From positions 1-34,384 of the forward strand of contig CAMEWS010000015.1 of assembly GCA_945946765.1 (NCBI GenBank): 34,384 nt of DNA, in the 5' to 3' direction. Position 1 is the stretch's first letter. Every line of letters starts with the position of its first letter. The position numbers and the translations under genes are program-made. Shown in pieces: positions 3,726 through 34,384 of this stretch. The stretch comes from an uncultured Clostridia bacterium. Lineage in GTDB: Bacteria; Cyanobacteriota; Vampirovibrionia; Gastranaerophilales; Gastranaerophilaceae. The notes under the pieces were generated by a model. That model was given only the letters and a program-made list of their open reading frames with translations. It had not been told where the DNA came from and searched no databases.

Positions 3726-3996
3726 TATTTACTTCCTCGCATTTCTGTATGATTTGTAAAATGTCTTGTCCGCAAGAACAATCAACAAAAGGGTGTTCAT
3801 TTTGTAATATCTCTTTAATTTCCTCAACAACTTGTTTGTAGCGTTCAGATAGTTGTTTATAATGTTCGCACCAATTCTTTTGACATTCTGCCTCTCCTTG
3901 CCAATATAAGAGCTTTAAGTCATCTTCATTCAACTTGACTTCTATTATAGGTGCTGTGTGTTTTTTTTTCACATCTTCGTTAATATCTATTTCCAT
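3715..3996 (-). CDS. hypothetical early protein, 93 aa
   Basis: This acidic, helical protein ends with CGQDILQIIQKCEEVNNAR. A very similar segment, EQDILQIIDEVER, ends the protein at 4883-5395, so the two genes share a C-terminal module. The last codons (EEV) carry the SD of the YopX gene. The function is unknown. Confidence 0.6.
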   Translation of the reverse strand: MEIDINEDVKKKHTAPIIEVKLNEDDLKLLYWQGEAECQKNWCEHYKQLSERYKQVVEEIKEILQNEHPFVDCSCGQDILQIIQKCEEVNNAR

Positions 3997-4295
3997 TAGT
4001 TATTCTCCTTAAATAATGCTTGTACTTGGTGTTTAAACCTGTCTTTATGTAAACAATAGCCATATCTTTCTATACAATAATTAAGTACAACTTCTTTTAA
4101 ATGTTCTACATTTTTTATTCCTTTAAATTCTACTGTTATTTCAGAAGATGTTGATATACATATCAACTCCAACAATATACGGTCGGTTATTTGTGGGTAT
4201 ACTTTGTCTATATAACACGGGAAAGTATCATATATTTGAACACATACAGGCTTAATCCCAAAAGTATCAAAAAACTGTTTTTCTATTTCACTCAT
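3996..4295 (-). CDS. hypothetical early protein, 99 aa
   Basis: The protein begins MSEIEKQFFDTFGIKPVC and has no recognised motif. Hydrophobic and polar residues alternate as in a small globular alpha/beta fold. Its stop and the next gene's ATG overlap by 1 nt. A GAGGTAG SD precedes the start. Confidence 0.6.
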   Translation of the reverse strand: MSEIEKQFFDTFGIKPVCVQIYDTFPCYIDKVYPQITDRILLELICISTSSEITVEFKGIKNVEHLKEVVLNYCIERYGYCLHKDRFKHQVQALFKENN

Positions 4296-12366: not shown

Positions 12367-12954
12367 ATGTCTAAAATGCTTCATAATATACTTATGACTG
12401 CGCAGTTGTCATTGTTCGGAAACTACATAAAAAGCACGAAAAAAAAGCGTGTTCACTTTAAAACCCCGACTTACAAAAAATTTTACAGCGTAAAACGCTA
12501 TGACAGGCAAAAATTCAGACATTATTTGAATTTAAAGCTAAAAGGTTATAAGTGCATAAGACCGCTAAGCCAAAATGACATATTAAAGCTGTGTTATCTA
12601 AAAGATGAATACGGGAATCAGCTTTATGACGGGGACGAAAAACATATTTTCAGATACAGCGCCCTGCACTATGCCCCCGATGATGACAAGCAAAAAACAC
12701 GTTGCAAGTACCGTAATTATGGTATTCACGAATTGATTTATAATAAGATACGTCCCAATTACGACAATGATATTATAGAAACAAACAATGTAGTTTGTTA
12801 CCCCGATGAAAGGCAAGCGGAAATAAAAAACACTTGGCAGTTGCCACTTACAAAAAGAATTAAAATACATATCAGGCTGTTGTGGTTGCTTGATGATTAC
12901 AATTTAAAACAATCAATGGAATGGATGAATGAAGTTGATATAAAGAGGTTATGA
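12367..12954 (+). CDS. first late-region gene, unknown, 195 aa
   Basis: A basic protein rich in Lys, Arg and Tyr (KKKRVHFKTPTYKKFYSVKR), with no recognised domain. It directly precedes the terminase small subunit and overlaps its start. Basic proteins in this place include packaging or late-regulatory factors, but nothing in the sequence proves either. SD GGTGA lies before the ATG. Confidence 0.6.
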   Translation: MSKMLHNILMTAQLSLFGNYIKSTKKKRVHFKTPTYKKFYSVKRYDRQKFRHYLNLKLKGYKCIRPLSQNDILKLCYLKDEYGNQLYDGDEKHIFRYSALHYAPDDDKQKTRCKYRNYGIHELIYNKIRPNYDNDIIETNNVVCYPDERQAEIKNTWQLPLTKRIKIHIRLLWLLDDYNLKQSMEWMNEVDIKRL

Positions 12955-14644: not shown

Positions 14645-14675
14645 GCCCGATTTGAAATCTTATATGCTTGTGGCA
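14645..14675 (+). promoter_or_regulatory. late element P1 (GCCCRATTT class)
   Basis: GCCCGATTT (14645-14653), 8 nt, ATATGCT (14662-14668), 6 nt, predicted +1 A at 14675. This is the weakest -10-like box of the six copies. The transcript would begin with the SD AGGAG of the portal gene. It lies 3 nt after the terL stop. Confidence 0.6.
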
Positions 14676-14691: not shown

Positions 14692-16056
14692 ATGCAATAT
14701 CAAATACAAACTGATAGCTTGGAGATTACGGCTAAAAATGTTTATAGTTGGATAAATTCATTTAAAAATAACATTTTGCCGACAAGACAAAAGCTTTGTG
14801 ATTATTATGACGGAAAAAACGAAGTCGTAAAACAAGGCGCGGTGAAAGGACGTCCGAATTATTCTATTAACGTAAATATGGCAAAGTATATTATAGACGT
14901 TGCCACTTCATACGCTTTTGGCAATCCTATAAAATACACTACCGATAACGAAAATGCAAAAGCAATACTGGAGAAAATTCAATATATACACAAAAATTGT
15001 TCTATTGCAGAAGTTGACTTTCAACAAGGCGGTGATATGGCTACTTACGGTGTATCATATCAGCTTGTTATGGCATTAGCGGGCAAAGGTAAAATCGAAG
15101 ATAGAATTTTGTTTAAATATTTAAACCCTTTGCAAACATTTTATGTAGTTGACAATACTATTCTTGAAAATCCGATTTGTGCTGTTTATTTCTACGAATA
15201 CACAGAGAAAAAAGTTAAAAAAACAAAAGTATATGTCTACGACAGCGTAAATCTTACTGTTTTTAACGGTGATATTTCAAATTTACAAACAGAAAGCATT
15301 GAACAGCACAATATGGGCGCTATTCCAATTATACAATGCTTAAACAATGACGATGCGTTTGGTGATATTTATTGCGTTACTGACTTACTGGACAGTTTAA
15401 GCCTTGCGGTGTCAAACTCAACCGACAACTTGCAATCTATCGCAAATGCTATTTTGACAACAACGGGCGGACAGTTAACAGACAAACAAATTGAACAAAT
15501 TAATCAATATAAAGTTGCTAATTTACCGATAGGCGCAGTTATGCAATGGGTTATTAAAAACGTTGACCCTACCGCAGAACAGCAACAAGTTGATAACTTA
15601 TTGAAGTTTATTTTTCAAATATCACAAGTACCGGACTTAACAGACGATGCCTTTGCGGGTAATCAATCAGGCGTGGCAATGCAATATAAATTATGGGGCT
15701 TAGACCAATTGTGGGTCACTAAAACTACAAAGTATAAAAAAGCCATTATCGAACGACTTAAAATTATTATGCACTTGTTACAATACCGTTTTACAAGCAC
15801 CGTACAAATGCTTGATGAAATCAATATTACTTTTGATAAAAATCTGCCAAAAGATAACAGTGCAGAATATGCGATGGTGCAAGCGCTTAAAGATGTTATT
15901 TCGAAGAAAACTTTACTTGAAAACATCTCAATTGTTAAAGATGTTCAAAAAGAAATTGAAGCACTTGACGAAGAATCAGCCAAAAACGCAGACTTATACG
16001 GATTCAATAATAACGAAAACTTAAACGCTCAAGGCGGAGAGGATGTCGAAGAATAG
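14692..16056 (+). CDS. portal protein (SPP1 gp6 type)
   Basis: This 454-residue protein forms the dodecameric gate at the capsid vertex through which DNA passes. It has the SPP1-type features: YYDGKNEVVKQGAVKGRPNY near residue 40, VDVATSYAFGNPIKY-like sequence, a central KNVDPTAEQQQVDNLLKFIF and QSGVAMQYKLWGLDQL. The acidic C-terminus ends AQGGEDVEE. ATG 14692 is used because AGGAG lies 9 nt upstream; a TTG further upstream would overlap the predicted promoter. It overlaps the MuF gene by 14 nt. Confidence 0.92.
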   Translation: MQYQIQTDSLEITAKNVYSWINSFKNNILPTRQKLCDYYDGKNEVVKQGAVKGRPNYSINVNMAKYIIDVATSYAFGNPIKYTTDNENAKAILEKIQYIHKNCSIAEVDFQQGGDMATYGVSYQLVMALAGKGKIEDRILFKYLNPLQTFYVVDNTILENPICAVYFYEYTEKKVKKTKVYVYDSVNLTVFNGDISNLQTESIEQHNMGAIPIIQCLNNDDAFGDIYCVTDLLDSLSLAVSNSTDNLQSIANAILTTTGGQLTDKQIEQINQYKVANLPIGAVMQWVIKNVDPTAEQQQVDNLLKFIFQISQVPDLTDDAFAGNQSGVAMQYKLWGLDQLWVTKTTKYKKAIIERLKIIMHLLQYRFTSTVQMLDEINITFDKNLPKDNSAEYAMVQALKDVISKKTLLENISIVKDVQKEIEALDEESAKNADLYGFNNNENLNAQGGEDVEE

Positions 16057-17403: not shown

Positions 17404-17485
17404 AAGATTATCTTATTATGAGGACTCCCGCACCCCTCTGTCACCTATTGGTTCGGTAGGGAGAATTACCGTATAAGATAATCTT
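17404..17485. other. 82-nt element with 13-bp terminal inverted repeats
   Basis: AAGATTATCTTAT (17404-17416) and its exact complement at 17473-17485 enclose 56 nt that contain further short stems (GAGG/CCTC, CCTA/TAGG or GGTA/TACC). The interior is far more GC-rich than the neighbourhood. It starts 2 nt after the MuF-toxin stop. It could be a folded RNA, a miniature inverted-repeat element, or a terminator (on the minus strand the stem is followed by TTTTT). The remaining bases up to 17552 show nothing. Confidence 0.6.
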
Positions 17486-17552
17486 ACTTATATTATAAAC
17501 CATTTTAAAAATTTTTCAATCCTTGCACTTGCGTTTTTTATATTCAATATCA

Positions 17553-17651
17553 CCGCCAAACTGGTCAAACTGGTCAAACTGGCATTATAACTAGCTTTGC
17601 AGTTTGGCGGGTACTGGTCAAACTGGTCAAACTGGCTAAACTGGTCAAACT
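17553..17651. repeat. iteron-like array of AAACTGGTC with flanking inverted repeat
   Basis: Three 9-bp units stand at 17558-17584 (AAACTGGTC, AAACTGGTC, AAACTGGCA). Four more, the first and third altered, stand at 17611-17646, with a partial fifth to 17651. The first block begins with CCGCCAAACTG (17553-17563), whose exact inverted copy CAGTTTGGCGG is at 17600-17610. It lies just upstream of late element P2. Protein-binding site, pac site or origin are possible roles. Confidence 0.8.
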
Positions 17652-17662
17652 AAAATAAAAAT

Positions 17663-17693
17663 GCCCGATTTTCAACCTGTCATACTGTCTGTA
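17663..17693 (+). promoter_or_regulatory. late element P2 (GCCCRATTT class)
   Basis: GCCCGATTT (17663-17671), 8 nt, TCATACT (17680-17686), 6 nt, predicted +1 A at 17693, which begins an ATG. It lies upstream of the scaffold/capsid genes and directly after the iteron array. CATAC/GTATG at 17681-17695 form an inverted repeat across the -10-like box. Confidence 0.7.
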
Positions 17694-17758
17694 TGTTCCT
17701 AGAACAGTAAAACTAGGGTTATGTACAGGACAGTAAAACTGAAAACAGGAGAAACACA
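17693..17758 (+). promoter_or_regulatory. structured leader of the scaffold/capsid unit
   Basis: The leader starts with a five-codon frame (ATG 17693 to TAA 17708-17710, MFLEQ). It contains the palindrome GTTCCTAGAAC (17695-17705) and two copies of ACAGTAAAACT (17704-17714, 17730-17740). The scaffold SD AGGAG follows. It may tune expression of the most abundant virion proteins. Confidence 0.35.
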
Positions 17759-18253
17759 ATGTCAGAAGACACAAAAACATTTACACAGGCAGATTTTGAT
17801 GCGCTGAAAGCAGAACACAGCAAAGCGTTAAAAGAGTTGGAAGAAAGACTAAAAGGCGAAACAGCCCGCAAAGTAGATGCCGCAATTAAAAAAACACAAG
17901 CAGAAGCAGAAGAAGCTGCAAAAAATGCAAACTTGTCAGAACTTGAAAAAGCGCAAAAAGCAGCCGAAAACTATCGAATCAAATACGAAGCGGAGGCTGA
18001 AAAAACAGCTTTAACAGCTCAAAAAGAAGAAACAAGAAAGCTTATGAGTGAGCTTGGCGTAGATGAAAAGTGTTTGGACTTTGTTTTTATCCCCAAAGAT
18101 ATTGAAGGCACAAAAGCAAGGGTGCAAGCTTTCAAAGGGTATGTTGACGATGTTAAAAAGACTACTTTTGAAAACAATGTACAATCAAAAACTCCGAAAG
18201 CAGGCAATCCCCCCGCTGAACAAGATGTCTTTGAATTAGGTTTCGACAGCTAA
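17759..18253 (+). CDS. capsid scaffolding protein
   Basis: This 164-residue protein is almost entirely charged and helical, with a long coiled coil (about 10-95, ending QKEETRKLMSELGVDE). A conserved tail (CLDFVFIPKDIEGTKARVQAF) matches GP20/DUF4355-type phage scaffolds. It sits directly before the major capsid gene, as usual. Scaffolds guide procapsid assembly and then leave. SD AGGAG stands 8 nt before ATG. Confidence 0.8.
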   Translation: MSEDTKTFTQADFDALKAEHSKALKELEERLKGETARKVDAAIKKTQAEAEEAAKNANLSELEKAQKAAENYRIKYEAEAEKTALTAQKEETRKLMSELGVDEKCLDFVFIPKDIEGTKARVQAFKGYVDDVKKTTFENNVQSKTPKAGNPPAEQDVFELGFDS

Positions 18254-20630: not shown

Positions 20631-20661
20631 GCCCGATTTGTGTTTTGTCATACTCTAATTA
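20631..20661 (+). promoter_or_regulatory. late element P3 (GCCCRATTT class)
   Basis: GCCCGATTT (20631-20639), 8 nt, TCATACT (20648-20654), 6 nt, predicted +1 A at 20661. That base is the A of the next gene's ATG, and no SD is present, which predicts a leaderless mRNA. The element starts 1 nt after the previous stop codon. Confidence 0.75.
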
Positions 20662-21086
20662 TGGCAATCATTATCGACATAAAAAACGCTGTAAGAAAAG
20701 CTATACACACAAAAGATTCCGCTGTTAATTTCTTTTTTAACGAGATTTTAAAAGTCAAATATCCGTATGTGTTTTTTTACATCCCGTCATTTCGTATTGA
20801 TAAAGCCATAGACACAGAATACTGGCGAAAAATTACGCTTATGTGTGTTGCGGAATATGCAAAATCCGAAGACAACAAAGCAGTCGACTTGTGGGAATAT
20901 TGCGACACATTAACCGAAGCTTTTAAGTCTTTTGAGTTTTTGGACTCAAGAATAAGCGCAACAAACATAGAGTTTAAGACGATTGACAGCGTTTTACAAA
21001 TGACTTTTGACCTCGAATGTTATGTAAAAGCTGTTGATGAAACCGAACTTATGAAAGATTTGGACCTTACATTAAAACAAATATAG
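20661..21086 (+). CDS. tail terminator protein
   Basis: This 141-residue protein begins MAIIIDIKNAVRKAIHTKDS and has the mixed alpha/beta profile of myophage tail terminators (DUF6838-like): PYVFFYIPSF, then DLWEYCDTLTEAFKSFE. Its place between the gp10-like gene and the sheath fits. No SD precedes the ATG, which coincides with the predicted transcription start of P3. An upstream TTG at 20640 would lie inside the promoter element and is rejected. Confidence 0.7.
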   Translation: MAIIIDIKNAVRKAIHTKDSAVNFFFNEILKVKYPYVFFYIPSFRIDKAIDTEYWRKITLMCVAEYAKSEDNKAVDLWEYCDTLTEAFKSFEFLDSRISATNIEFKTIDSVLQMTFDLECYVKAVDETELMKDLDLTLKQI

Positions 21087-21097
21087 GAGATTAAAAA

Positions 21098-22189
21098 ATG
21101 GTGCAAACACAACCAAAATTTAATGTGTCGTTTAAAGAGGATGCCGTACTTGCTATACAAAAACAAGAACGTGGCGCAGTTATTATGATTTTAAATGACA
21201 CAACAAACGCAGAAATTGACAAAATAACTTTCAGAGGATTGGGCGATGTTAAAAAAGCTGATTTTACGGAAGATAATTACGATTTGTTAACATTGGCTTT
21301 TTTAGGCAATCCGTCAAAAGTTATTGTAATCAAAAATGAAACAAACTTTACGGAAACTTTGGCAAAGCTTGACTACTACGATAACTATACGCTTTGTTTT
21401 CCTAAAGCAAAACCCGAAGACCAAACCGCAATTATTAACTATATTAAACAAATAAGAGGAAAAAATAATTATTCAATCGCTGTTTTAGGCGCAGCAACCG
21501 CACCGGATGCACAATATGTTGTTAACTTTACAACAGACGGTATTAAGGCAAACGTAAACGGTGAAGTAAAAGAACTTACGACAGGCGATTATACGGCACG
21601 TGTTGCAGGTGCTTTGAGCGGACTTGCTTCAAGTCGTTCACTTACTTACTTTGAGTTACCTGAATTGGTTGAATGCAATTTATCGGAAGACGAAGACAAA
21701 GACGTAAAAGACGGAAAATTAACGATATTACATCAAGACGGCTCTTTTAAATTTGGTCGTGCGGTAAATTCTCTTACTACTTTAACTGACGGAGTAACGG
21801 AAGCTTTCCAAAAAATAAGAGTAGTAAATACCCTAGATACAATCGCTAACGATGTTGTGGCAACTTTTAGAAAGTATTATGTCGGCAAATATACAAACAA
21901 TTTCACAAATAAAAATCGCTTTATAGGTGCAATAAACTCATATCTTTATGACAGAGCGGTTGAAGGCTTGTTGGAAATTGAAAACGACAATGCAGTTGCT
22001 ATTTCTTACGAAAAAACAAAATCTTATTTGGAGGGCAAAGGCGTTGACACTTCAAAAATGTCATATATCGAAATTTTAAAAGCAAATACAGGTTCAAGAG
22101 TTCTTTTAGACGGGGTATGTTCACCTACTGATGCAATGGAAGATTTGGACTTGGGTATGTACTTATTTCAAGCATTACAAAACGCATAA
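21098..22189 (+). CDS. contractile tail sheath protein
   Basis: This 363-residue protein shows the tail-sheath layout: N-terminal domain, central insertion domain (KVIVIKNETNFTETLAKLDYY, FPKAKPEDQTAIINY), GDYTARVAGALSGLASSRS, and the conserved C-terminal subtilisin-like/stem part with VVNTLDTIANDVVATFRK. It makes the phage a myovirus. Its SD is AGGAG. Confidence 0.92.
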   Translation: MVQTQPKFNVSFKEDAVLAIQKQERGAVIMILNDTTNAEIDKITFRGLGDVKKADFTEDNYDLLTLAFLGNPSKVIVIKNETNFTETLAKLDYYDNYTLCFPKAKPEDQTAIINYIKQIRGKNNYSIAVLGAATAPDAQYVVNFTTDGIKANVNGEVKELTTGDYTARVAGALSGLASSRSLTYFELPELVECNLSEDEDKDVKDGKLTILHQDGSFKFGRAVNSLTTLTDGVTEAFQKIRVVNTLDTIANDVVATFRKYYVGKYTNNFTNKNRFIGAINSYLYDRAVEGLLEIENDNAVAISYEKTKSYLEGKGVDTSKMSYIEILKANTGSRVLLDGVCSPTDAMEDLDLGMYLFQALQNA

Positions 22190-22201
22190 GGAGATTACAA
22201 T

Positions 22202-22630
22202 ATGGCAGGCAAAACAGCAAAAGAGGTTTTAACGGGTTCAAATGCCAAAGTCTTTTTGGACGGTGAAGAATTGGGAACTTGGACAAACTTAGAATTAAAC
22301 GTAACTATAAATTATGAAGACGTGCAAATCGGTTTTGACGTAAAACGCAAAGCTGTATCGTGGCAAGGTGATTTAACATTAAACTGGCAATCTACAAACT
22401 CAATGACGGTTGAAATGTTCAATAAAATCAAAGCAAATAAAGACGTTAGTTTTGTAATCGAAGCCGAAATAACAAGCGATGCAACAGGTGAAACACAATC
22501 ACAAACAATAAACGATGTTACATTTGATACTATACCTTTGGGAACTTGGGAAAAAGGTGCATTGGTAACAAACGAGCTGTCAGGACGTTTTGCGCCGTCA
22601 GAGTTACAAGTAACACAGTTAATAGGATAA
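22202..22630 (+). CDS. tail tube protein (XkdM-like)
   Basis: This 142-residue, beta-rich protein starts MAGKTAKEVLTGSNAKVFLD and has the VNYEDVQIG-type strand, SWQGDLTLNW and a final FAPSELQV, as in Bacillus PBSX XkdM-like tube subunits. The tube is the inner conduit under the sheath. SD AAGGAG. Confidence 0.9.
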   Translation: MAGKTAKEVLTGSNAKVFLDGEELGTWTNLELNVTINYEDVQIGFDVKRKAVSWQGDLTLNWQSTNSMTVEMFNKIKANKDVSFVIEAEITSDATGETQSQTINDVTFDTIPLGTWEKGALVTNELSGRFAPSELQVTQLIG

Positions 22631-22646
22631 TTGCAAAATCCTCATT

Positions 22647-22662
22647 GCCCCCCTTTGGGGGC
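22647..22662 (+). other. GC hairpin between tube and chaperone genes
   Basis: GCCCCC pairs with GGGGGC across a four-base loop. The following T-run is too short for a firm terminator. It could partly stop transcription or protect the abundant sheath/tube mRNA 3' end. Confidence 0.5.
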
Positions 22663-22687
22663 TTTGGGGTTACAACAAGGAGGATTT

Positions 22688-23089
22688 ATGGCAAACTTAG
22701 ACAAATTGTTAAAAAGAATCGAAAAAAATAAAGAAACGGCAAACGAAACAAAAATATTTCCGCTAACTATCGGCGATGATACTTTTGACGTTAAAACTAT
22801 GACCCGTAGCGAAAAACGTGATTTTATTTATGCTCAGGAAGCAGGCAAAGCCAATATGACGGCGGGTGACATCATTAAAAAGATGAAACCTTTTATATAT
22901 AAAGCTCTTAACCTTAAAGAGTTGGCAGTAAAAGCAAAAGATGCAGGGTATATTAATTCATATTATGACGTAATTGAAGCTTTGTTTGAGCCTGAACAAA
23001 TAATTGAAATCATCGCTTTTATAACTGAAATAAACAATGTTTCCGATAAAGATATTACGGAGGATATTGAGCAAACAAAAAAGCCATAG
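22688..23089 (+). CDS. tail assembly chaperone, short form (XkdN-like)
   Basis: This 133-residue helical protein (MANLDKLLKRIEKNKETANE..., TMTRSEKRDFIYAQE, PEQIIEIIAFITEINN) is the gpG-type chaperone that helps wind the tape measure before the tube polymerises. SD AAGGAGG. Its 3' end carries the A-AAA-AAG slip site (23077-23083) just before the stop, so a fraction of ribosomes should make the longer form. Confidence 0.88.
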   Translation: MANLDKLLKRIEKNKETANETKIFPLTIGDDTFDVKTMTRSEKRDFIYAQEAGKANMTAGDIIKKMKPFIYKALNLKELAVKAKDAGYINSYYDVIEALFEPEQIIEIIAFITEINNVSDKDITEDIEQTKKP

Positions 23090-23235
23090 AGGAAAATTTA
23101 GACCTTTTATTATGCGCTTATTATTTGCAAAAAGGTATCACACCCGATGTTATTTTAAATTTAACAACAAGAGAAAAAATATTTTACTTAGCTTCAATAC
23201 AATGGTGGGCTGAAAAACAGCAAGTGGAGAATTAA
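22688..23235 (+). CDS. tail assembly chaperone, -1 frameshifted long form (gpGT type)
   Basis: In the 0 frame, the codons ACA AAA AAG CCA TAG end the short form. The heptamer A-AAA-AAG (23077-23083) is the canonical -1 slippery sequence. After slipping, reading resumes with GCC at 23083 and continues for 50 residues (AIEENLDLLLCAYYLQKGIT... WWAEKQQVEN) to TAA 23233-23235. This second frame has no start of its own, fills the gap to the tape measure gene, and looks like the conserved XkdN/gpT extension. The full product would be about 182 residues. Confidence 0.85.
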
Positions 23236-23238
23236 CCA

Positions 23239-24495
23239 ATGGCACAATACAAAGACATATTTTTACTTGTGGACAAAGTGTCAAAACCTTTACAAAAAAT
23301 TCAAGACAAAATGAAAGGTGTTAATCAGATTTCTGAAAAAACACAAGGCAAATTGTTAAAATTTAAAAACGGACTTGATAAAATCGGTAAAGTAGCTAAA
23401 ACTACTGCCAAAGTTATTGGTACAGTAGTAAGCGCAGTAGGAGTATTAGGCAGTGCGGCACTTGCAGGCGCTAACAAATATGCTGATTACGGTGACAGAA
23501 TTGACAAAATGAGCCAAAAAATCGGAATGTCACGCAAGGCATTTCAAGAATGGGACTATATAATGTCACAGAATGGCGGAAATGTCGAAACCTTGCAAAT
23601 GGGATTTAAAACTCTTACTACCCAAATAGAAGGTGTTCAAAAAGGGTCAAAAGACAGTATCAAGGCTTTTAGAAATTTAGGGGTAAGTGTTAAAGACAGC
23701 AACGGAAATTTTAAAAATCAGGATGCAATTTTTAATGAAACTATAAGAAAATTACAAAAAATAGAAAATCCGACAAAAAAAGCAATGTTGGCAAATCGTC
23801 TGTTCGGTAGAAGTGCGGCAGAATTAAGACCATTGTTGAATCAAGAAGCAAGTGCCGTTGATAATTTAAGAGAAAAAGCAAATTCTATGGGGTTAATAAT
23901 ATCTGATAAGGATATTGAAAACGCTGTAAAATACAAAGATACAATGGACACCTTTTCAAGGTTTTTTGAAGCTAAATTTGCAAGTGTAATGATGAGTGTA
24001 ATGCCCGACCTTACAAATGCATTAGAAAATATAATACAATTGGTTGAAGAAAATCAAGAAGTTTTTGACGGATTAGGTTCGGCAATTAAATGGATTGGCG
24101 GCACAGCGTTACCCAAAGTTATAAAAGGTATATTGTTTACCCATAAAGTCTTTAGTGGTATTGGCGGTTTTATAGGTAATATTTTAGGCAGAATATTGTC
24201 GATACCGACAGCAATCCAAACAGCAATTAACAATATACTAACCGGCATAATTATATTTATTAACAAAATTATCGAAAAAATATCTCAATTATTAAACGGT
24301 ATAAAAAAAGTGCAAGAATGGAGCAGTAAAGAAAGTAAAAAAACAGCCGATGAAGTTGGAAAAGGTGCAACTTCAAGCAGTAGAGTAAATAACACAAAAA
24401 CTATAAACAACAATAATAATAACAGCAGAACTTATAACATAAAAGCAACGGGAGTAGACCTAAAAGGATTGCTTAAAAATAAACATTCAAGGTAA
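23239..24495 (+). CDS. tape measure protein
   Basis: This 418-residue protein sets tail length and is extruded on infection. It has an N-terminal coiled-coil region, a hydrophobic stretch (about 55-80: VIGTVVSAVGVLGSAALAGA), a conserved DRIDKMSQKIGMSRKAFQEW segment, RLFGRSAAELRPLL, and a second hydrophobic region (about 310-345). At 418 residues it is short for a myophage, so a short tail of roughly 60 nm is expected from the usual 1.5 angstrom per residue. No lysozyme or peptidase domain is visible. The C-terminal end has an Asn-rich run. Confidence 0.88.
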   Translation: MAQYKDIFLLVDKVSKPLQKIQDKMKGVNQISEKTQGKLLKFKNGLDKIGKVAKTTAKVIGTVVSAVGVLGSAALAGANKYADYGDRIDKMSQKIGMSRKAFQEWDYIMSQNGGNVETLQMGFKTLTTQIEGVQKGSKDSIKAFRNLGVSVKDSNGNFKNQDAIFNETIRKLQKIENPTKKAMLANRLFGRSAAELRPLLNQEASAVDNLREKANSMGLIISDKDIENAVKYKDTMDTFSRFFEAKFASVMMSVMPDLTNALENIIQLVEENQEVFDGLGSAIKWIGGTALPKVIKGILFTHKVFSGIGGFIGNILGRILSIPTAIQTAINNILTGIIIFINKIIEKISQLLNGIKKVQEWSSKESKKTADEVGKGATSSSRVNNTKTINNNNNNSRTYNIKATGVDLKGLLKNKHSR

Positions 24496-24505
24496 ATGAT
24501 TTATA

Positions 24506-24534
24506 TTGATTAAATTTTATATAATCAATATAAT
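24506..24534 (+). promoter_or_regulatory. sigma70-type promoter of the cargo gene
   Basis: TTGATT (24506-24511), exact 17-bp spacer, perfect TATAAT (24529-24534). Transcription would start near 24541, 10 nt before ATG 24551. This is unlike the phage late element and suggests expression by host RNA polymerase in the prophage state. Confidence 0.75.
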
Positions 24535-24550
24535 AAATTTATTAGTTAGT

Positions 24551-25507
24551 ATGGTATTATTTATGTTTATTGCGTTATTGATTTTAATCGTTCTGGTTGT
24601 ATATTTTGTTAAGCAAAAAAAGAATCAAAGCATTAATACTTTGAATTTTACAAATTCTTGTAATACGAAAGAAGAATACGAAAAACGTAAATTAAAAAAA
24701 ATTGAATTTGCAACAAATGATTTTTACTTTTGGGAAAAATTAAAAATTCCGTCATTTAAAATAAATAAAAATTATTTAAAAAAATGGATTTGCCCTTATT
24801 GTGGACAAAAATTAACTCCTAAAAAAGGAAATACGTTTAAATGCCAAAATTGTAAGCAAAAAATATTTAGAAAAAGAGAAATACTAACTACGGAAGAAGG
24901 GTTATTTACAGAGGAACAAAAAGAGCAAATCAATTTTCTTTGGAGTGAATATCAACAAAGAATCAAATTTTTAGAATGTTATCAATATATGGACAACATT
25001 CTATTGCCAAAACCAACATTAAATGAAATTGGCGAAATTGTTAAACCAAAATTTACAGAAAATAAAAAACAAAACATAAAAACGCTTATAACTTATTTAC
25101 ACTTAGGTTCGCCTGATTTCTATAAAAAAGAAAACATAAATAAACTTAGAGAATCAAGATATTATGAGGGTAAATTTCAAAATATTTATGGCACAGTAGA
25201 ACAATCAACAAATGCCTTTATGAGTGTATTATACATAGATTTAATAGGTGATTATTGCGAATTATATAATGACGTAAATTACACAAAAGACGAGTTAAGA
25301 GAAGACGGTTTTGAAGAATGGTCAGAAGGTTTTATCGCTCCAGCTATATATAGTTATGCTTTTCAAGAAGATTTAACTTTAGAAAAAAATAAAGAAATAT
25401 TTATGTTTAATGCTAACAGTTTAGTTAAATTATTACAATTTACACCACCAATATCACCGGAAGAAGCTTGGCAAAGAATACTTGAATATAGAAAAAATTT
25501 AGAATAA
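24551..25507 (+). CDS. cargo (moron) membrane protein with zinc ribbon, unknown function
   Basis: This 318-residue protein has one N-terminal transmembrane helix (MVLFMFIALLILIVLVVYF), then a Lys-rich segment and a zinc ribbon with CPYCGQK and CQNCKQK, followed by about 200 soluble residues with no recognised fold. It interrupts the tail genes between tape measure and small virion genes, is more AT-rich than its neighbours, and has its own sigma70 promoter and terminator. A TTG at 24506 would place the start inside the promoter, so ATG 24551 is preferred although it lacks an SD. Superinfection exclusion or defence is a guess from context. Confidence 0.7.
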   Translation: MVLFMFIALLILIVLVVYFVKQKKNQSINTLNFTNSCNTKEEYEKRKLKKIEFATNDFYFWEKLKIPSFKINKNYLKKWICPYCGQKLTPKKGNTFKCQNCKQKIFRKREILTTEEGLFTEEQKEQINFLWSEYQQRIKFLECYQYMDNILLPKPTLNEIGEIVKPKFTENKKQNIKTLITYLHLGSPDFYKKENINKLRESRYYEGKFQNIYGTVEQSTNAFMSVLYIDLIGDYCELYNDVNYTKDELREDGFEEWSEGFIAPAIYSYAFQEDLTLEKNKEIFMFNANSLVKLLQFTPPISPEEAWQRILEYRKNLE

Positions 25508-25510
25508 TCA

Positions 25511-25533
25511 AAGCCCCCAAACAGGGGCTTTTT
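25511..25533 (+). terminator. intrinsic terminator after the cargo gene
   Basis: AAGCCCC (25511-25517) pairs with GGGGCTT (25524-25530), loop CAAACA, and the T-run is 25529-25533. Late element P4 begins 5 nt later. Confidence 0.85.
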
Positions 25534-25537
25534 AAAT

Positions 25538-25568
25538 GCCCAATTTGTGAAGGCTTATTATTTATATA
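25538..25568 (+). promoter_or_regulatory. late element P4 (GCCCRATTT class)
   Basis: GCCCAATTT (25538-25546), 8 nt, TTATTAT (25555-25561), 6 nt, predicted +1 A at 25568. It follows a terminator directly, which supports a promoter role. The transcript leader forms AGTTGC/GCAACT around the SD AAGGAG of the next gene. Confidence 0.7.
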
Positions 25569-25604
25569 GGAGTTAAGAATAGTTGCAACCAAAAAGGAGC
25601 AACT

Positions 25605-25859
25605 ATGTTAGAAATCAAAAGAATTTTAAGGACATTCAACAGCGAAATGCTACACAAAATTATCAAAATTGCGGAATTAAACGAGAATGAAAGCACTTTA
25701 ATAAAAGAGTTTTTCATACGAAAAAATTCAAGAGATAACATATGCGAAAAAATGAGCATTTCACGTTCAACTTTTACAAACATTAAAAATCAAGCATTGT
25801 TAAAAATTAAACTGACCTTAATTGTTCTTTTAGACGAAAAGATTAAGCAATTGACTTAA
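25605..25859 (+). CDS. small sigma-region-4-like HTH protein
   Basis: This 84-residue protein begins MLEIKRILRTFNSEMLHKII. Its second half (FIRKNSRDNICEKMSISRSTFTNIKNQAL) has the helix-turn-helix spacing of sigma70 region 4 or related phage late regulators (ArpU-like). It is the first gene of the P4 unit. A role in recognising the late element, for example its upstream GCCC box, is a testable inference. SD AAGGAG is 5 nt from ATG. Confidence 0.6.
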   Translation: MLEIKRILRTFNSEMLHKIIKIAELNENESTLIKEFFIRKNSRDNICEKMSISRSTFTNIKNQALLKIKLTLIVLLDEKIKQLT

Positions 25860-25884
25860 AAGACTAACCAAACAAGAACAGATT

Positions 25885-25916
25885 ACCTCTATACTCAAAG
25901 TATGGAGGTTTTTTTT
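25885..25916 (+). terminator. terminator that also holds the next gene's SD
   Basis: A 10-bp stem (25885-25894 with 25900-25909, one G-T pair) has loop TCAAA and is followed by eight T. The 3' arm contains GGAGG, the SD for ATG 25917/25920. Transcripts that read through would hide this SD in the stem. Confidence 0.8.
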
Positions 25917-26288
25917 ATGATGAATTACGGATATTTTAACCCAATGATGACACCTCAACAAAGATTGTCGCAGTTAGAGCAACAATACTCACAGTTTGGT
26001 CAACAAGTCGGATTTAAAGTTTTGCCCGTTACTAATGTCGAAGAAGCAAACGCTTCGCAAATTGATTTAAACGGAAACCCTGTTTTTTTCTATAACAAGG
26101 GCAAAAACGAAGTTTACATCAAACAATTTAACGTGCAAACAGGACTTGCAGACTTTTATACGTTTACAAGAGTAGAAAATGCAACAAAAACAGAATCAAA
26201 AGACGAATTTAAGCTAATTAACGATAAATTAGACAAACTTTATTCAATTTTAGAAAAACCCAAAAAGGCGGTAAAAAATGATGAATAA
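25917..26288 (+). CDS. small virion-associated phage protein, 123 aa
   Basis: The protein starts MMNYGYFNPMMTPQQRLSQL and continues with a Gln-rich helix and a small beta domain (FKVLPVTNVEEA, NPVFFYNKGKNEVYIKQFN). It resembles short proteins found between tape measure and baseplate genes in gut prophages; their exact role is not known. The C-terminal helix DEFKLINDKLDKLYSIL may form a coiled coil. The start at 25917 or 25920 is set by GGAGG in the terminator stem. Confidence 0.65.
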   Translation: MMNYGYFNPMMTPQQRLSQLEQQYSQFGQQVGFKVLPVTNVEEANASQIDLNGNPVFFYNKGKNEVYIKQFNVQTGLADFYTFTRVENATKTESKDEFKLINDKLDKLYSILEKPKKAVKNDE

Positions 26289-26493
26289 TATAATGCAAAT
26301 GTTTCAAATGTTTAAATGCGCACAAAACCCAATGCAAATGATGATATCAACACTTGGTAATAACCCGCAATTTAATCAAGTAATGCAAATAGCAGAGGGC
26401 AAAAGCCCGCAAGAATTAGAGCAATATACAAGAAATGCTTACAAGTCTTGCGGTCAAGATATAAATATGGTTTTAAAACAGTTCGGACTATAA
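26278..26493 (+). CDS. small Met/Gln-rich phage protein, 71 aa
   Basis: It begins MMNNIMQMFQMFKCAQNPMQ and ends with a Cys-containing helix (YKSCGQDINMVLKQFGL). The Met- and Gln-rich, amphipathic character is shared with small proteins in the same place in other gut prophages. It overlaps the upstream gene by 11 nt. The function is unknown. The following 66 nt carry the palindrome CACCTCAAGGTG and a repeated GGYGTGATTT. Confidence 0.65.
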   Translation: MMNNIMQMFQMFKCAQNPMQMMISTLGNNPQFNQVMQIAEGKSPQELEQYTRNAYKSCGQDINMVLKQFGL

Positions 26494-26559
26494 CCGCTTC
26501 GGCGTGATTTACCACCTCAAGGTGTGATTTGTAATACACAACAAAGAAAAGAGGTAAAA

Positions 26560-27159
26560 ATGGAAGCAACACCACTCACTGCCGCAGATATTGCAGCAGT
26601 AACAGGAAAACACGGTTATGGTTATGACGGTATGAATAGTTGGATATGGATAATCCTTTTATTCTTTCTTTTCAGTAACGGTTACAACCGTAACAGCGTA
26701 ACAGCACAAGAAATGCAACAAGGCTTTGACAATCAATCCGTTATGAGAAAACTTGACGGCATTGCTCAAGGCTTATGTGACGGATTTTACGCACAAAATA
26801 CAAATCTTTTAACAGGTTTTAATGCAATTGGTAAAGAGATTGCAGAAAACAGATTTGCTGCACAAAATTGTTGCTGCGAAACAAACCGCAATATTGATGC
26901 CGTAAGATACGAAAACGCAAAAAACACTTGCGACATAATTACTGCAGGCAATACAAACACTCAAAAAATATTGGATTATTTAACTCAAAACAAAATTGAT
27001 TCATTGAGAACTGAACTCCAATCCGCACAGCTTCAACTTGGTAATTTGTCACAAACAAATACTATTTTGCAAGCTTTACAACCTACTCCAAAACCTGCAT
27101 ACCCTGTACAAAGCCCATACGCTACATATACGGGTTGCGGTTGCGGTCAATTTGCGTAA
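26560..27159 (+). CDS. phage protein with one membrane helix and Cys cluster, 199 aa
   Basis: An N-terminal helix (about residues 27-40: SWIWIILLFFLFS) is followed by GFDNQSVMRKLDGIAQGLCDGFY, a Cys cluster (AAQNCCCETNRNIDAVRYENA), a long coiled coil, and a C-terminal YTGCGCGQFA. This layout recurs in gut prophages near the tape measure and baseplate genes. The role is unknown; membrane or virion association is inferred. SD AGAGG. Confidence 0.65.
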   Translation: MEATPLTAADIAAVTGKHGYGYDGMNSWIWIILLFFLFSNGYNRNSVTAQEMQQGFDNQSVMRKLDGIAQGLCDGFYAQNTNLLTGFNAIGKEIAENRFAAQNCCCETNRNIDAVRYENAKNTCDIITAGNTNTQKILDYLTQNKIDSLRTELQSAQLQLGNLSQTNTILQALQPTPKPAYPVQSPYATYTGCGCGQFA

Positions 27160-27167
27160 TCAACCCG

Positions 27168-27196
27168 GGCAAGGGGTTTTGACCCTTGCCTTCTTT
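27168..27196 (+). terminator. possible intrinsic terminator
   Basis: GGCAAGGG (27168-27175) pairs with CCCTTGCC (27183-27190), followed by TTCTTT. The T-run is interrupted, so it may be partial. Confidence 0.6.
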
Positions 27197-27220
27197 ATAA
27201 ACACATAGAAAGAGGATAAA

Positions 27221-27556
27221 ATGAACAATTGCAATAAAACTTGTCACAAAGTGCAAACAGTAACAACAACAGATACAAACGTTGTATTAACAGTAACAAA
27301 TTCAACAAATATAAGTTCACTGGATTGTTTTAATTTTTCAAGAGATTGTAAATCAATTAGCGATGTAGTTACAGGTTCACCATTGCCTGTTCAAATCATT
27401 GTAAACGGTGTAGCTGTAAGCTTATTAAATAAGTATTCATTACCAATATTGAGCAATAGAGTACCTTACAGGTCGAGAGGTGCTTATGTCGTGCCTAGCA
27501 GCGGCACTCCGTACGTTATTTTGTTCGATACACCTTATTGCAAATGCAATGTTTAG
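27221..27556 (+). CDS. small beta-rich phage protein, 111 aa
   Basis: Starts MNNCNKTCHKVQTVTTTDTN and is rich in Thr, Val and Ser with beta-strand character, ending TPYCKCNV. Paired Cys at both ends may form a disulfide or metal site. It resembles a small conserved protein of gut prophages in the same neighbourhood; the function is unknown. SD AGAGG precedes it. Confidence 0.65.
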   Translation: MNNCNKTCHKVQTVTTTDTNVVLTVTNSTNISSLDCFNFSRDCKSISDVVTGSPLPVQIIVNGVAVSLLNKYSLPILSNRVPYRSRGAYVVPSSGTPYVILFDTPYCKCNV

Positions 27557-27755
27557 CGAAGAACAATTGGCACTTATGGCAAACATAGTGCAGATTTTTA
27601 ATTACATTGAAAATTCACATCAAACAAGTAACGACAAAATAATGTTGGAATTACAAAAACAAAATGAAGTCTATTTGGAAACCTCAATAAAACAAAACAA
27701 CGAAATAATCGAAAGATTGGAAAGGTTAGAAAATGGAAACAATAAGAGAACCTGA
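27549..27755 (+). CDS. small helical protein, 68 aa
   Basis: From ATG 27549 the protein reads MFSEEQLALMANIVQIFNYI and then a Glu- and Lys-rich coiled coil (EIIERLERLENG). It overlaps the upstream gene by 8 nt and the next by 23 nt. The function is unknown. Confidence 0.6.
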   Translation: MFSEEQLALMANIVQIFNYIENSHQTSNDKIMLELQKQNEVYLETSIKQNNEIIERLERLENGNNKRT

Positions 27756-27945
27756 ATTAAACATATCAGAACTGAAAATTGAAGATATTTATGAAGAAGT
27801 CTATAAAATAGCACTTTCAACAGAAGATAAAGCTATTGAATTGCAAGCTTGGAGTTTACTCATAAATTACAAGAAAGACTTGGAATTTAAAGAAACTAAA
27901 GAAAAAACAATGAAAGAGATGATTTCTTCATTAGCGAAATTTTAA
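27733..27945 (+). CDS. small helical protein, 70 aa
   Basis: Acidic and helical throughout: METIREPELNISELKIEDIY at the start, KEMISSLAKF at the end. It has no recognised motif and is co-transcribed with its neighbours. Confidence 0.6.
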   Translation: METIREPELNISELKIEDIYEEVYKIALSTEDKAIELQAWSLLINYKKDLEFKETKEKTMKEMISSLAKF

Positions 27946-27956
27946 GGAGATATAAA

Positions 27957-28415
27957 ATGTACGATTTAAAGAAAGCTGATGAAATATATCAAAAAAAACG
28001 TGAAGAAAATCCAAACTATGACCACGAATTGGTTATGGAATGGAAAAAAGATATGCCAAATCAATTTGCTCAAAAAATGTATGAAGATGAATACGGATGT
28101 CATATTTTTAACAAAGATATGTACGAAGAATCAACAGAGCTTTTTGAGTGGGTTGACGGCAAAGGAACAGGCATTAAATGGTCAATAGATGATATTGTTA
28201 AACTGTCAAATATTAGCTTTGACACAAAGGAATATACAAAATTTGATTATGCATATGTCGTAAATATGCTTTGGTCTGATTATTGCAATGTATTTACAGA
28301 GCCGGGTTATTATTTAAAAATGTCAAAAAATTACTTAGAAGACCCCGATTATTGCGGCGAAGCTTCCGAAAGAGCTTATCACAATGCCGTAAAAAGAATA
28401 AAATACAACCCCTAA
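27957..28415 (+). CDS. phage protein of unknown function, 152 aa
   Basis: The protein begins MYDLKKADEIYQKKREENPN and contains the aromatic-rich WVDGKGTGIKWSIDDIVKL and MLWSDYCNVFTEPGYYLKM. This resembles a conserved hypothetical family in gut prophages, in the same place before the baseplate genes. It is the last gene of the P4 unit; a strong terminator follows. SD AAGGAG. Confidence 0.6.
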   Translation: MYDLKKADEIYQKKREENPNYDHELVMEWKKDMPNQFAQKMYEDEYGCHIFNKDMYEESTELFEWVDGKGTGIKWSIDDIVKLSNISFDTKEYTKFDYAYVVNMLWSDYCNVFTEPGYYLKMSKNYLEDPDYCGEASERAYHNAVKRIKYNP

Positions 28416-28420
28416 ACTTT

Positions 28421-28443
28421 GAGGGCTTGCGCCCTCTTTTTTT
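28421..28443 (+). terminator. intrinsic terminator before the baseplate genes
   Basis: GAGGGC (28421-28426) pairs with GCCCTC (28431-28436), loop TTGC, followed by seven T. Late element P5 begins at the next base. Confidence 0.88.
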
Positions 28444-28474
28444 GCCCAATTTATCAAATGTCATAATAAATTTA
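28444..28474 (+). promoter_or_regulatory. late element P5 (GCCCRATTT class)
   Basis: GCCCAATTT (28444-28452), 8 nt, TCATAAT (28461-28467), 6 nt, predicted +1 A at 28474, the first base of the next gene's ATG. There is no SD, so a leaderless mRNA is predicted. It abuts the preceding terminator. Confidence 0.78.
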
Positions 28475-29136
28475 TGGCTAAAAGATTATACATACAACTA
28501 TATAATGCAAAAACAGGCGAAAGTATTACTTTGCCTTTAAACCCCGAAACAACCGACATACCCAACGAAAAAGACATTAAAACTTATAACATATTGGGTT
28601 ATGGAGAAGTATCGCTAAAAGGCAACAGACAATTAAAAAGATTGACTTTGTCTAATATATTTCCCGATAATAATACCCGCTTTGCTTTGCTTGCTTCACT
28701 TGTAAAACAGCTTAATTACAAGCCTTATTCAATGCAAGAAACAATTGATATGATAAACAGGTGGGTTGATAACGATAATATAATCAGAGTTATTATTTCA
28801 GGTCATTTAAACGCAGAATTCAGAATAGCAAGCCATACGTCACAAATTAAAGAAAGCGTAAGCGATGTAGGTTATACAATTGAACTTGTTGAGTATCGAA
28901 ATCCAACTCAAAAATCCGAAATTTATACTGTTAAAAAATCAAAACTGACAAAACTCAAAGAAAGAGCAATTAATAAATACATTCCTTCGCAAATTACAGG
29001 TCAAACAGGGCAAACAATTTACAAACTTGCTAAGTTAAATTATGGCGGTAAGTGGGAAGAATTGGCACAAAAAAACGGAATAACCAACGCTAATATGCAA
29101 CTTGCGGGGCAAATCGTGGAGATGTTGCCGCTATGA
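28474..29136 (+). CDS. XkdP-like baseplate/tail protein with LysM-like end
   Basis: This 220-residue protein follows the layout of PBSX XkdP: an N-terminal domain (MAKRLYIQLYNAKTGES... GEVSLKGNRQLKRLTLSNIF), a middle beta region, and a C-terminal LysM-like segment (QTIYKLAKLNYGGKWEELAQ... NGITN). It sits between tube/tape measure and hub genes and is likely part of the tail tip. The ATG coincides with the predicted start of transcription of P5. It overlaps the next gene by 4 nt. Confidence 0.75.
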   Translation: MAKRLYIQLYNAKTGESITLPLNPETTDIPNEKDIKTYNILGYGEVSLKGNRQLKRLTLSNIFPDNNTRFALLASLVKQLNYKPYSMQETIDMINRWVDNDNIIRVIISGHLNAEFRIASHTSQIKESVSDVGYTIELVEYRNPTQKSEIYTVKKSKLTKLKERAINKYIPSQITGQTGQTIYKLAKLNYGGKWEELAQKNGITNANMQLAGQIVEMLPL

Positions 29137-32415: not shown

Positions 32416-32446
32416 GCCCGATTTTAAAACTTTCATAATGGGATTA
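32416..32446 (+). promoter_or_regulatory. late element P6 (GCCCRATTT class)
   Basis: GCCCGATTT (32416-32424), 8 nt, TCATAAT (32433-32439), 6 nt, predicted +1 A at 32446. It begins directly after the previous stop codon. The 20-nt leader carries the SD GGAGG of the tail-fibre gene. Confidence 0.75.
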
Positions 32447-32465: not shown

Positions 32466-34384
32466 ATGGCATATATTCCTAATAAATGGGTTGACAGAGA
32501 AGGCACAACACGTTATTTTGAATCGGTTGAAAAAGACGGTGCAAAAATATTTACACCCGATTATACCCAACTTACGGAAATCGGCACACCTGTAAACGCT
32601 GATAATATGAATCACATCGAAGAAGGTATTGCCGCAGGTTCTTTTACAAAATACAATTCCGATGAGATTTATCAATTAAACGATTTGGTCACTTGTTTTG
32701 TTGATGACGAATTAAAAGTTTTTAAATCATTGCAAAATGAAAACCATAACAACCCTGTAACAAATACCTCTTTTTGGGAAGAAGTCGCACTTGGCGGTGG
32801 TTCAGGCTTAGAAGTTTGTGATATAGGTATGTCGCTCTATGTCGATGAAACAAAAGGTTTAAGACGTTACCTTAACGGACAAATTGTTGATATAAACACT
32901 AATACACAAGCGTTTTTGAATAGGTTAAAAGATATTACAACACTTCATCCGTCATTACTTTGTACAGAAGATGAATGGCAAACGGCTAAAACAATGTCAG
33001 CTTTCGGGCAAGTTGGTAAATTTGTATTTAATTATAGCGGTGATGAGGTTGTATCAGTTCGTATACCTAGAGTAGTCAATGTTCAAGGTTTGTTTGATTT
33101 ACAGAATTTAGGTTTGACGGTTGGGGCAGGATTGCCGAACATTACGGGTTCTGTCGAAATAACGAAAGCTGATTCATCGGGCACAGGAGCATTTCTAAGT
33201 TCTACAAATGGAACTGGTGGAGCAGGAACAAATTCTAGCGGTAAAGTCAGGTTTTATGCACAGGCAAATTTTGACGCTAGTAATTCTAATAGCATTTATG
33301 GTAACTCCGACACAGTTCAACAAGAATCTATACAATACCCTTACTTTATTCAAATAGCAACAGGAAGTGAAACGGAGAACAATATTATAAATGAGATTGA
33401 GTTAAACAATCCTTACAGCTTGTTTGACAGCAAGTATTCAGACCACGAGTTAAATAATTTATCTTGGTTAAAATCAGAAGGTCAATGGAATGCTAAGGCT
33501 GTTTATCCGACAGCTTATGACAAGTTGTTGAAGGTCTATAACGGTACGGAAACTGTTGAAGGGTTAAGTGTTAAGTTATCAACGGAAGAATATACCGATT
33601 ACGATTTTGTTTTGAATACATCAGATGAAACATTTAGGTTGCCGTTGTTGGATGGTGACAGGGTTCTTGTTGCCAAAAAAGTACCGACAAGCGATGACCT
33701 TACTTGGTTTAACTGGTATTCTGACGGTTGGTTGGAACAAGGCGGAAGCGTTGAAGGAACAACTTCAATTACTGTACAGCTTGTTAAACATTTTGCTAGT
33801 ATAAATTACTCGGCTTTTGCGACAGTAGAAGGGGCAACACAATCATATACTTGTTCTGTTGTAATTAATTCCAATTCACAAATAACTATTCAATCAGGAG
33901 CTTCAAGCACTTGCACTAAACTATGGCAAACATCGGGATACGGAGCAATTCCTCAACCTTCAGACTACACAGATGGCATAAATCTCTACTACTACGTAGG
34001 TGAAACAGTACAAAACGCTAACCTTATTGACGCAGGCAGGATTGGGGAAGTATTACCGACTAAAACTGATAAGGTTCAAGCTGCCCAGTCAGGTATGCCG
34101 TCAGGTAGGTATATTGATTTAACTTTGGGGGCTAGTGGTACAACTTATACTGCTCCTGCTAATGGATATTTTTCTTGGTCAGGTTTGTTAAAAGGTACGG
34201 TTGCTAGTTTTAGCCTTTATAATAAAACCACAAGTTTAGGTACACAATCATATAGTAATTACAACGCCGATACAGGTATAAATGGTTTTTGTTTTGTACC
34301 TGTAAGTAAGGGTGACGTTGTCGTTAATGAGAATTACGCAAGTACGTCATTAACAACAAACTATTTTAGATTTATCTACGCAGA
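32466..34384 (+). CDS. tail fibre / receptor-binding protein (partial)
   Basis: The frame from ATG 32466 (SD GGAGG 6 nt upstream) is open to the window end, at least 639 residues. The N-terminus (MAYIPNKWVDREGTTRYFES, then TPVNADNMNHIEEGI) is the usual baseplate-anchoring part of phage fibres. The rest is Gly-, Ser-, Thr- and Asn-rich and beta-like, with repeat-like segments, and nears a knob (SGTTYTAPANGYFSWSG). Receptor recognition is inferred from position and composition. The C-terminus, any chaperone, and lysis genes lie outside the window. Confidence 0.85.
   Translation, partial: MAYIPNKWVDREGTTRYFESVEKDGAKIFTPDYTQLTEIGTPVNADNMNHIEEGIAAGSFTKYNSDEIYQLNDLVTCFVDDELKVFKSLQNENHNNPVTNTSFWEEVALGGGSGLEVCDIGMSLYVDETKGLRRYLNGQIVDINTNTQAFLNRLKDITTLHPSLLCTEDEWQTAKTMSAFGQVGKFVFNYSGDEVVSVRIPRVVNVQGLFDLQNLGLTVGAGLPNITGSVEITKADSSGTGAFLSSTNGTGGAGTNSSGKVRFYAQANFDASNSNSIYGNSDTVQQESIQYPYFIQIATGSETENNIINEIELNNPYSLFDSKYSDHELNNLSWLKSEGQWNAKAVYPTAYDKLLKVYNGTETVEGLSVKLSTEEYTDYDFVLNTSDETFRLPLLDGDRVLVAKKVPTSDDLTWFNWYSDGWLEQGGSVEGTTSITVQLVKHFASINYSAFATVEGATQSYTCSVVINSNSQITIQSGASSTCTKLWQTSGYGAIPQPSDYTDGINLYYYVGETVQNANLIDAGRIGEVLPTKTDKVQAAQSGMPSGRYIDLTLGASGTTYTAPANGYFSWSGLLKGTVASFSLYNKTTSLGTQSYSNYNADTGINGFCFVPVSKGDVVVNENYASTSLTTNYFRFIYA

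Follow-up and report, generated by a model that had tools for sequence, protein, structure and literature searches.

The window analysed here is an entire contig of 34,384 bases (C15) within a 1.65 Mb draft genome, and it contains a contractile-tailed, PBSX-like prophage whose genes include an integrase, RecT, a CI-like repressor, terminases, portal, scaffold, capsid, tail sheath, tape measure and an XkdP-like gene. We focused on two of its late genes, which encode the tail terminator (20661..21086, + strand; Pfam Phage_tail_terminator_8, E 3e-13) and an XkdP-like tail assembly protein (28474..29136, + strand; PHROG 380, with a weak LysM match). Both follow copies of a repeated late promoter element and are predicted to be leaderless, i.e., transcribed from the A of their own ATG. 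An initial annotation had placed the predicted +1 on this A at 20661 and 28474 and had noted that neither gene has a Shine-Dalgarno (SD) sequence; both points were confirmed in the sequence. The start codon of the tail terminator can be taken as real, since residues M1 and A2 are invariant among the first 13 aligned terminators.

A predicted phage-specific late promoter

The late element has the consensus GCCCRATTT-N9-YATNNT-N6-A+1 and occurs in six copies on the late strand of the prophage, with +1 sites (looser -10 boxes allowed) at 14675, 17693, 20661, 25568, 28474 and 32446. Searching the window with TGCCCRATTTN6TGTCATAMT at up to three mismatches returned four matches, three of them strict copies and one with two mismatches, versus 0.10 expected, and none of 100 shuffles reached four. 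The copy before the tail terminator (P3, 20630..20660, +) consists of the box GCCCGATTT at 20631-20639, a -10-like CATACT at 20649-20654 and a 6-nucleotide (nt) discriminator, CTAATT, whose final T adjoins the ATG at 20661. The copy before the XkdP-like gene (P5, 28443..28473, +) has the box GCCCAATTT at 28444-28452, a -10-like CATAAT at 28462-28467 and the discriminator AAATTT, followed by the ATG at 28474. Directly upstream of P5 lies an intrinsic terminator (28421..28443, +; GAGGGC-TTGC-GCCCTC and seven T residues), such that any promoter of the XkdP-like gene's own is confined to the next ~30 nt.

The GCCCRATTT box is centred near -26, in the place of a -35 hexamer, and the -10 is of the sigma70 type; the sigma54 signature GG-N10-GC at -24/-12 was not found in the aligned promoters. 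The motif columns display the arrangement characteristic of T4 MotA-type promoters, namely a -10 without a -35 hexamer plus an activator-type box near -30. Outside the prophage contig, the host genome yielded element matches only at three mismatches and at about the rate of a reversed-pattern control, on which grounds we rejected a host-wide promoter. When the strict, ATG-linked element was sought in 193 related genomes, a single match was found in one of them, probably by chance.

An SD is present in 21 of the 29 late genes checked, and several of the remaining starts without one, other than the two leaderless starts, abut or overlap the gene 5' of them. The earlier remark that almost all other genes have an SD was therefore roughly right.

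Conservation of the leaderless layout

We next consider the relatives of this phage, comprising 14 IMG/VR contigs (tail sheath 66-76% identical), two contigs from a metagenome-assembled genome (MAG) labelled Muribaculaceae, and Dulem virus 31 (PP511318, sheath 66%). Among the 16 non-identical tail-terminator loci with an upstream region, window included, all 16 lack an SD and place a -10-like hexamer at a distance of exactly 6 nt upstream of the ATG, and the same holds for 8/8 XkdP-like loci. Across the terminator loci, positions -28C, -24T, -11A, -7T, -1T and the ATG are invariant and the stretch from box through -10 to ATG is free of indels, while the spacer columns -22 and -17 to -15 agree at 0.23-0.28, where ~0.28 is expected by chance from the base composition. 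The pattern [TC]AnnnT stands at -12 in 15/16 terminators (the exception, L012, reads AATAAT) and in all eight XkdP genes, with 0 occurrences at most neighbouring offsets. Moreover, the starts annotated by the depositors of Dulem virus 31 coincide with the predicted +1 for its tail terminator (6823), tail assembly protein (11493) and baseplate J (13972). This conservation across loci led us to reject a chance alignment of promoter and ATG. It also supports, at the level of sequence, the initial proposal of leaderless starts, for which an alignment of related phages had been suggested: the 6-nt spacing is kept, and no SD stands between element and ATG. More distant homologues, in Clostridioides phage JD033, Terrisporobacter phage TPELB_ph1 and a prophage in a genome of the same family (L024), look SD-led, suggesting that the leaderless layout is derived in the window's phage group.

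The Muribaculaceae-labelled MAG holds two different prophage relatives (L041 and L042; JAMPCZ010000021 and JAMPCZ010000026), and these contigs are probably mis-binned. Dulem virus 31 (PP511318.1, L086) is a 35.8-kb circular sequence that encodes a terminase, a portal and a tail sheath, and its GenBank taxonomy, Microviridae, does not fit these genes.

Leadered and predicted leaderless genes under one promoter

The initial annotation had spoken of leaderless starts at chosen late modules, and the other genes served by the late promoter agree with such a choice. Leaders measure 11-17 nt at portal genes and 44-102 nt at scaffold genes, and almost all of them contain a recognised SD; the tail-fibre gene likewise has a leader. 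In the window, P1 (14644..14674, +; +1 at 14675) precedes the portal with a 17-nt leader that holds the SD AGGAG before the ATG at 14692; P4 (25537..25567, +; +1 at 25568) precedes an SD-led gene at 25605 with a 37-nt leader; and P6 (32415..32445, +; +1 at 32446) precedes the tail-fibre ATG at 32466 with the SD GGAGG. The absence of a leader is thus not a constraint of the promoter, and the choice is specific to the gene.

Leaderless starts have also been gained at single genes in individual relatives: at baseplate J in Dulem virus 31, at the gene after xkdP in L010, at a 136-aa gene in L083 and its relative in L028, at a 63-aa gene in L029, and at a 133-aa gene on the reverse strand of L053. 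In the window, xkdP and the gene after it share a 4-nt overlap. In L010, the two have apparently been parted by a gene on the reverse strand, and the second of them begins at the +1 of a late promoter copy of its own.

Probable leaderless starts in the host

To place these starts in the context of the host, we counted signatures in 400 kb of host chromosome (L059-L078). Among genes without an SD, TAnnnT stands at -12 from the first ATG in 20/144, with ~5 at neighbouring offsets; among genes with an SD, it stands there in 0/160. The set with TAnnnT and no SD includes, by eye, homologues of DnaA, MiaB and RimO. A 16S rRNA match was obtained neither in the host genome nor in five genomes of the same genus. 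The best PDB matches of a host RpoB fragment were 8syi, 8h3v and 8gzg, which we take to be entries of cyanobacterial RNA polymerase, and the host is probably a non-photosynthetic cyanobacterial relative from the gut. Zheng et al. (2011; PMC3160421) read an upstream TAnnnT signal as marking leaderless (TA-led) genes. By the same signature, this host probably uses leaderless starts as a matter of course, and its ribosomes would then already support the mode that the phage is predicted to use. If so, the use of leaderless mRNAs on the chromosome, as indicated for this lineage, affects start-codon annotation in its genomes and in their phages.

Weighing of alternative explanations

The explanation that we favour is that the mRNAs of the tail terminator and the XkdP-like gene start at the AUG, from the phage-specific late promoter, and are translated leaderless; on the sequence, we regard it as very probable. 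Several points weigh against it. All homologues inherit one ancestral layout, so that 16/16 does not amount to 16 independent events. The promoter prefers a T-A-T/G initiator, and 11/12 scaffold leaders have an ATG at +1 without the scaffold gene being leaderless, making an ATG at +1 somewhat likely in any case. In addition, the candidate activator described below gave a low-confidence structural model (predicted local distance difference test, pLDDT, 65) and no match. The saturation of the spacer and the gains at single genes nevertheless argue for selection despite common ancestry.

The start might instead lie 1-4 nt upstream, for example at a purine at -3 or -4, leaving a very short untranslated tip that would be functionally close to no leader. 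The distance from a sigma70 -10 to the start does vary by 1-2 nt and many homologues have purines at -3/-4, yet all 24 leaderless loci read T at -1 and A at +1, and nearly every leadered promoter of this class also has A at +1, which makes a displaced start unlikely. Less credible still is translational coupling or re-initiation from the upstream cistron of a polycistronic mRNA, with the element incidental or a secondary promoter. In its favour, the preceding gene at most terminator loci ends ~30 nt short of the ATG, but this gap is long without an SD, and in L015 and L017 the terminator gene lies 263 nt beyond the stop of the neck gene, a distance at which coupling is unlikely. For the XkdP-like gene we rejected coupling, because in the window a strong hairpin terminator separates it from the upstream RNA and ends where the P5 box begins; in Dulem virus 31, the XkdP-like gene is preceded by a gene in reverse orientation. 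The AT-rich region and the probable cyanobacterial lineage of the host would suit an SD-independent start in an AT-rich, unstructured stretch of a leadered mRNA that begins at upstream promoters, a mode reported for numerous genes of cyanobacteria. Such a start leaves unexplained the retention of the -10-like box and of its 6-nt distance alongside a saturated spacer, and we consider it highly improbable. We give hardly any credence to the idea that the element is an operator or another DNA signal and no promoter at all: a repressor might bind the GCCCRATTT box, which falls between where -35 and -10 elements usually lie, but the box comes with a TATAAT-like hexamer at an unvarying distance and with a purine at the start, and the element is found on the coding strand ahead of gene starts, in many cases directly behind a terminator.

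A proposed mechanism and its precedents

In the leaderless model, host RNA polymerase would read the late promoter together with a phage-encoded activator, the GCCCRATTT box taking the place of the -35 contact, and transcription would always begin at the A of an initiator of the form T|A(T/G). For the tail terminator gene and the XkdP-like gene, this initiator is the ATG itself, so that the mRNA would begin with AUG and be translated leaderless. Read-through RNA from upstream promoters, offering no SD at these two genes, would be a poor template for them, and the output of both would consequently depend on the internal promoter. Our best candidate for the activator, named for its position and conservation, is the 195-aa product of a gene upstream of the terminase small subunit (12367..12954, +), which has homologues in every relative that reaches this region (27% identity in Dulem virus 31) and no match in Pfam, PHROG or PDB.

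As for the reason behind this layout, we can only speculate about dosage or gating by the 5' end. Tentatively, and with more doubt than belief, we suggest that activator-fired initiators placed on start codons keep the tail terminator, the XkdP-like gene and sometimes baseplate J silent on polycistronic read-through RNA, each being translated only from its own leaderless transcript, which, inside a single class of promoter, would set low-copy tail parts apart from the SD-led, high-copy head proteins.

T4 middle promoters combine a MotA box with a -10. The late promoter here is alike in having a sigma70 -10, no -35 and an activator box at about -30 to -22; it differs in the box itself, and no relative of MotA or AsiA was found among the 20 phage proteins, a subset of the genes, that were scanned with Pfam. 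TA-led genes (PMC3160421) and the -10 elements adjoining open reading frames in Deinococcus-Thermus (PMC12340547) share with our loci a TAnnnT ~10-12 bp before the start, no SD and a +1 predicted at the start codon. The phage loci, by contrast, have a phage-specific box instead of a -35, and their -12 is often C (CATAMT). Among phages, the Thermus phage phiYS40 makes leaderless middle and late mRNAs (described in PMC3594737), likewise in a host that uses leaderless genes; there most middle and late mRNAs are leaderless, whereas here only certain late genes are predicted to be, under a promoter shared with SD-led genes. The cI mRNA of phage lambda is also leaderless (named in PMC4965119) and begins at AUG, but it encodes a lysogeny repressor rather than a late structural protein and comes from another type of promoter. 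The case in the window is new and well conserved, while leaderless phage mRNAs, late ones included, were already known; given phiYS40 and the signature in host genes, calling such starts uncommon in phages, as the initial annotation did, was too strong. What the case offers is a clean comparative example of selection holding leaderless starts at identified late genes, for which the SD-led genes served by the same promoter act as an internal control.

The scaffold leader and neighbouring RNAs

The promoter P2 (17662..17692, +; box at 17663-17671, -10-like CATACT at 17681-17686) also has its predicted +1 on an ATG, at 17693, which opens the five-codon frame ATG TTC CTA GAA CAG TAA (17693-17710). 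This observation of the initial annotation stands, with a correction as to what the frame represents. The head scaffolding protein gene (17759..18253, +) starts 66 nt on and is SD-led, its leader (17693..17758, +) containing the 5'-terminal AUG and its short frame, a hairpin with a ACAGTAAAA loop, a second ACAGTAAAA copy and the SD AGGAG at 17747-17751. The leader with its two copies, the first in the conserved hairpin loop that ends in ACAGTAAAA and the second downstream, is conserved in much of the phage group. Although the scaffold leader starts with AUG in 11 of 12 cases, the frame is between 5 and 15 codons long, depending on the relative, and in one subgroup the frame overlaps the hairpin, two pairs of which are changed on both sides (G-C to C-G, U-A to C-G). 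We thus rejected the frame as a leaderless gene, and P2 is predicted to provide a 5'-terminal upstream AUG within an SD-led scaffold leader. In having an AUG at +1, a short frame and then an SD-led gene, this leader resembles E. coli mRNAs with a 5'-terminal AUG (PMC4965119); it differs from them in that the putative mini-frame overlaps a covarying hairpin.

Just 5' of P2, at 17560-17650 (+), lie tandem CTGGTCAAA-type repeats, which were not seen in the P2 upstream regions inspected in the relatives. Between the minor head gene and P2, at 17404-17486 (+), we observed a structured RNA of ~83 nt (minimum free energy -25.7 kcal/mol, z -2.6) that is conserved in L013 (6513-6594), Dulem virus 31 (3943-4024), L090 and L092. 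Its core reads GAGGACT..CCCTCTGTCRCC..TTGGYTCGGTA..TTACCG, and an apparent extra helix varies in a compensatory manner (CTCCC/GGGAG, CTCGG/CCGAG, CTGGA/TCCAG). It has no Rfam match above chance and is possibly an undescribed phage RNA. Lastly, a host-type -10, TATACT, stands 6 nt before ATGGAGGTTTTTTTTATG at 25902-25917 (+), where the AUG at +1 also overlaps the SD of the next ATG.

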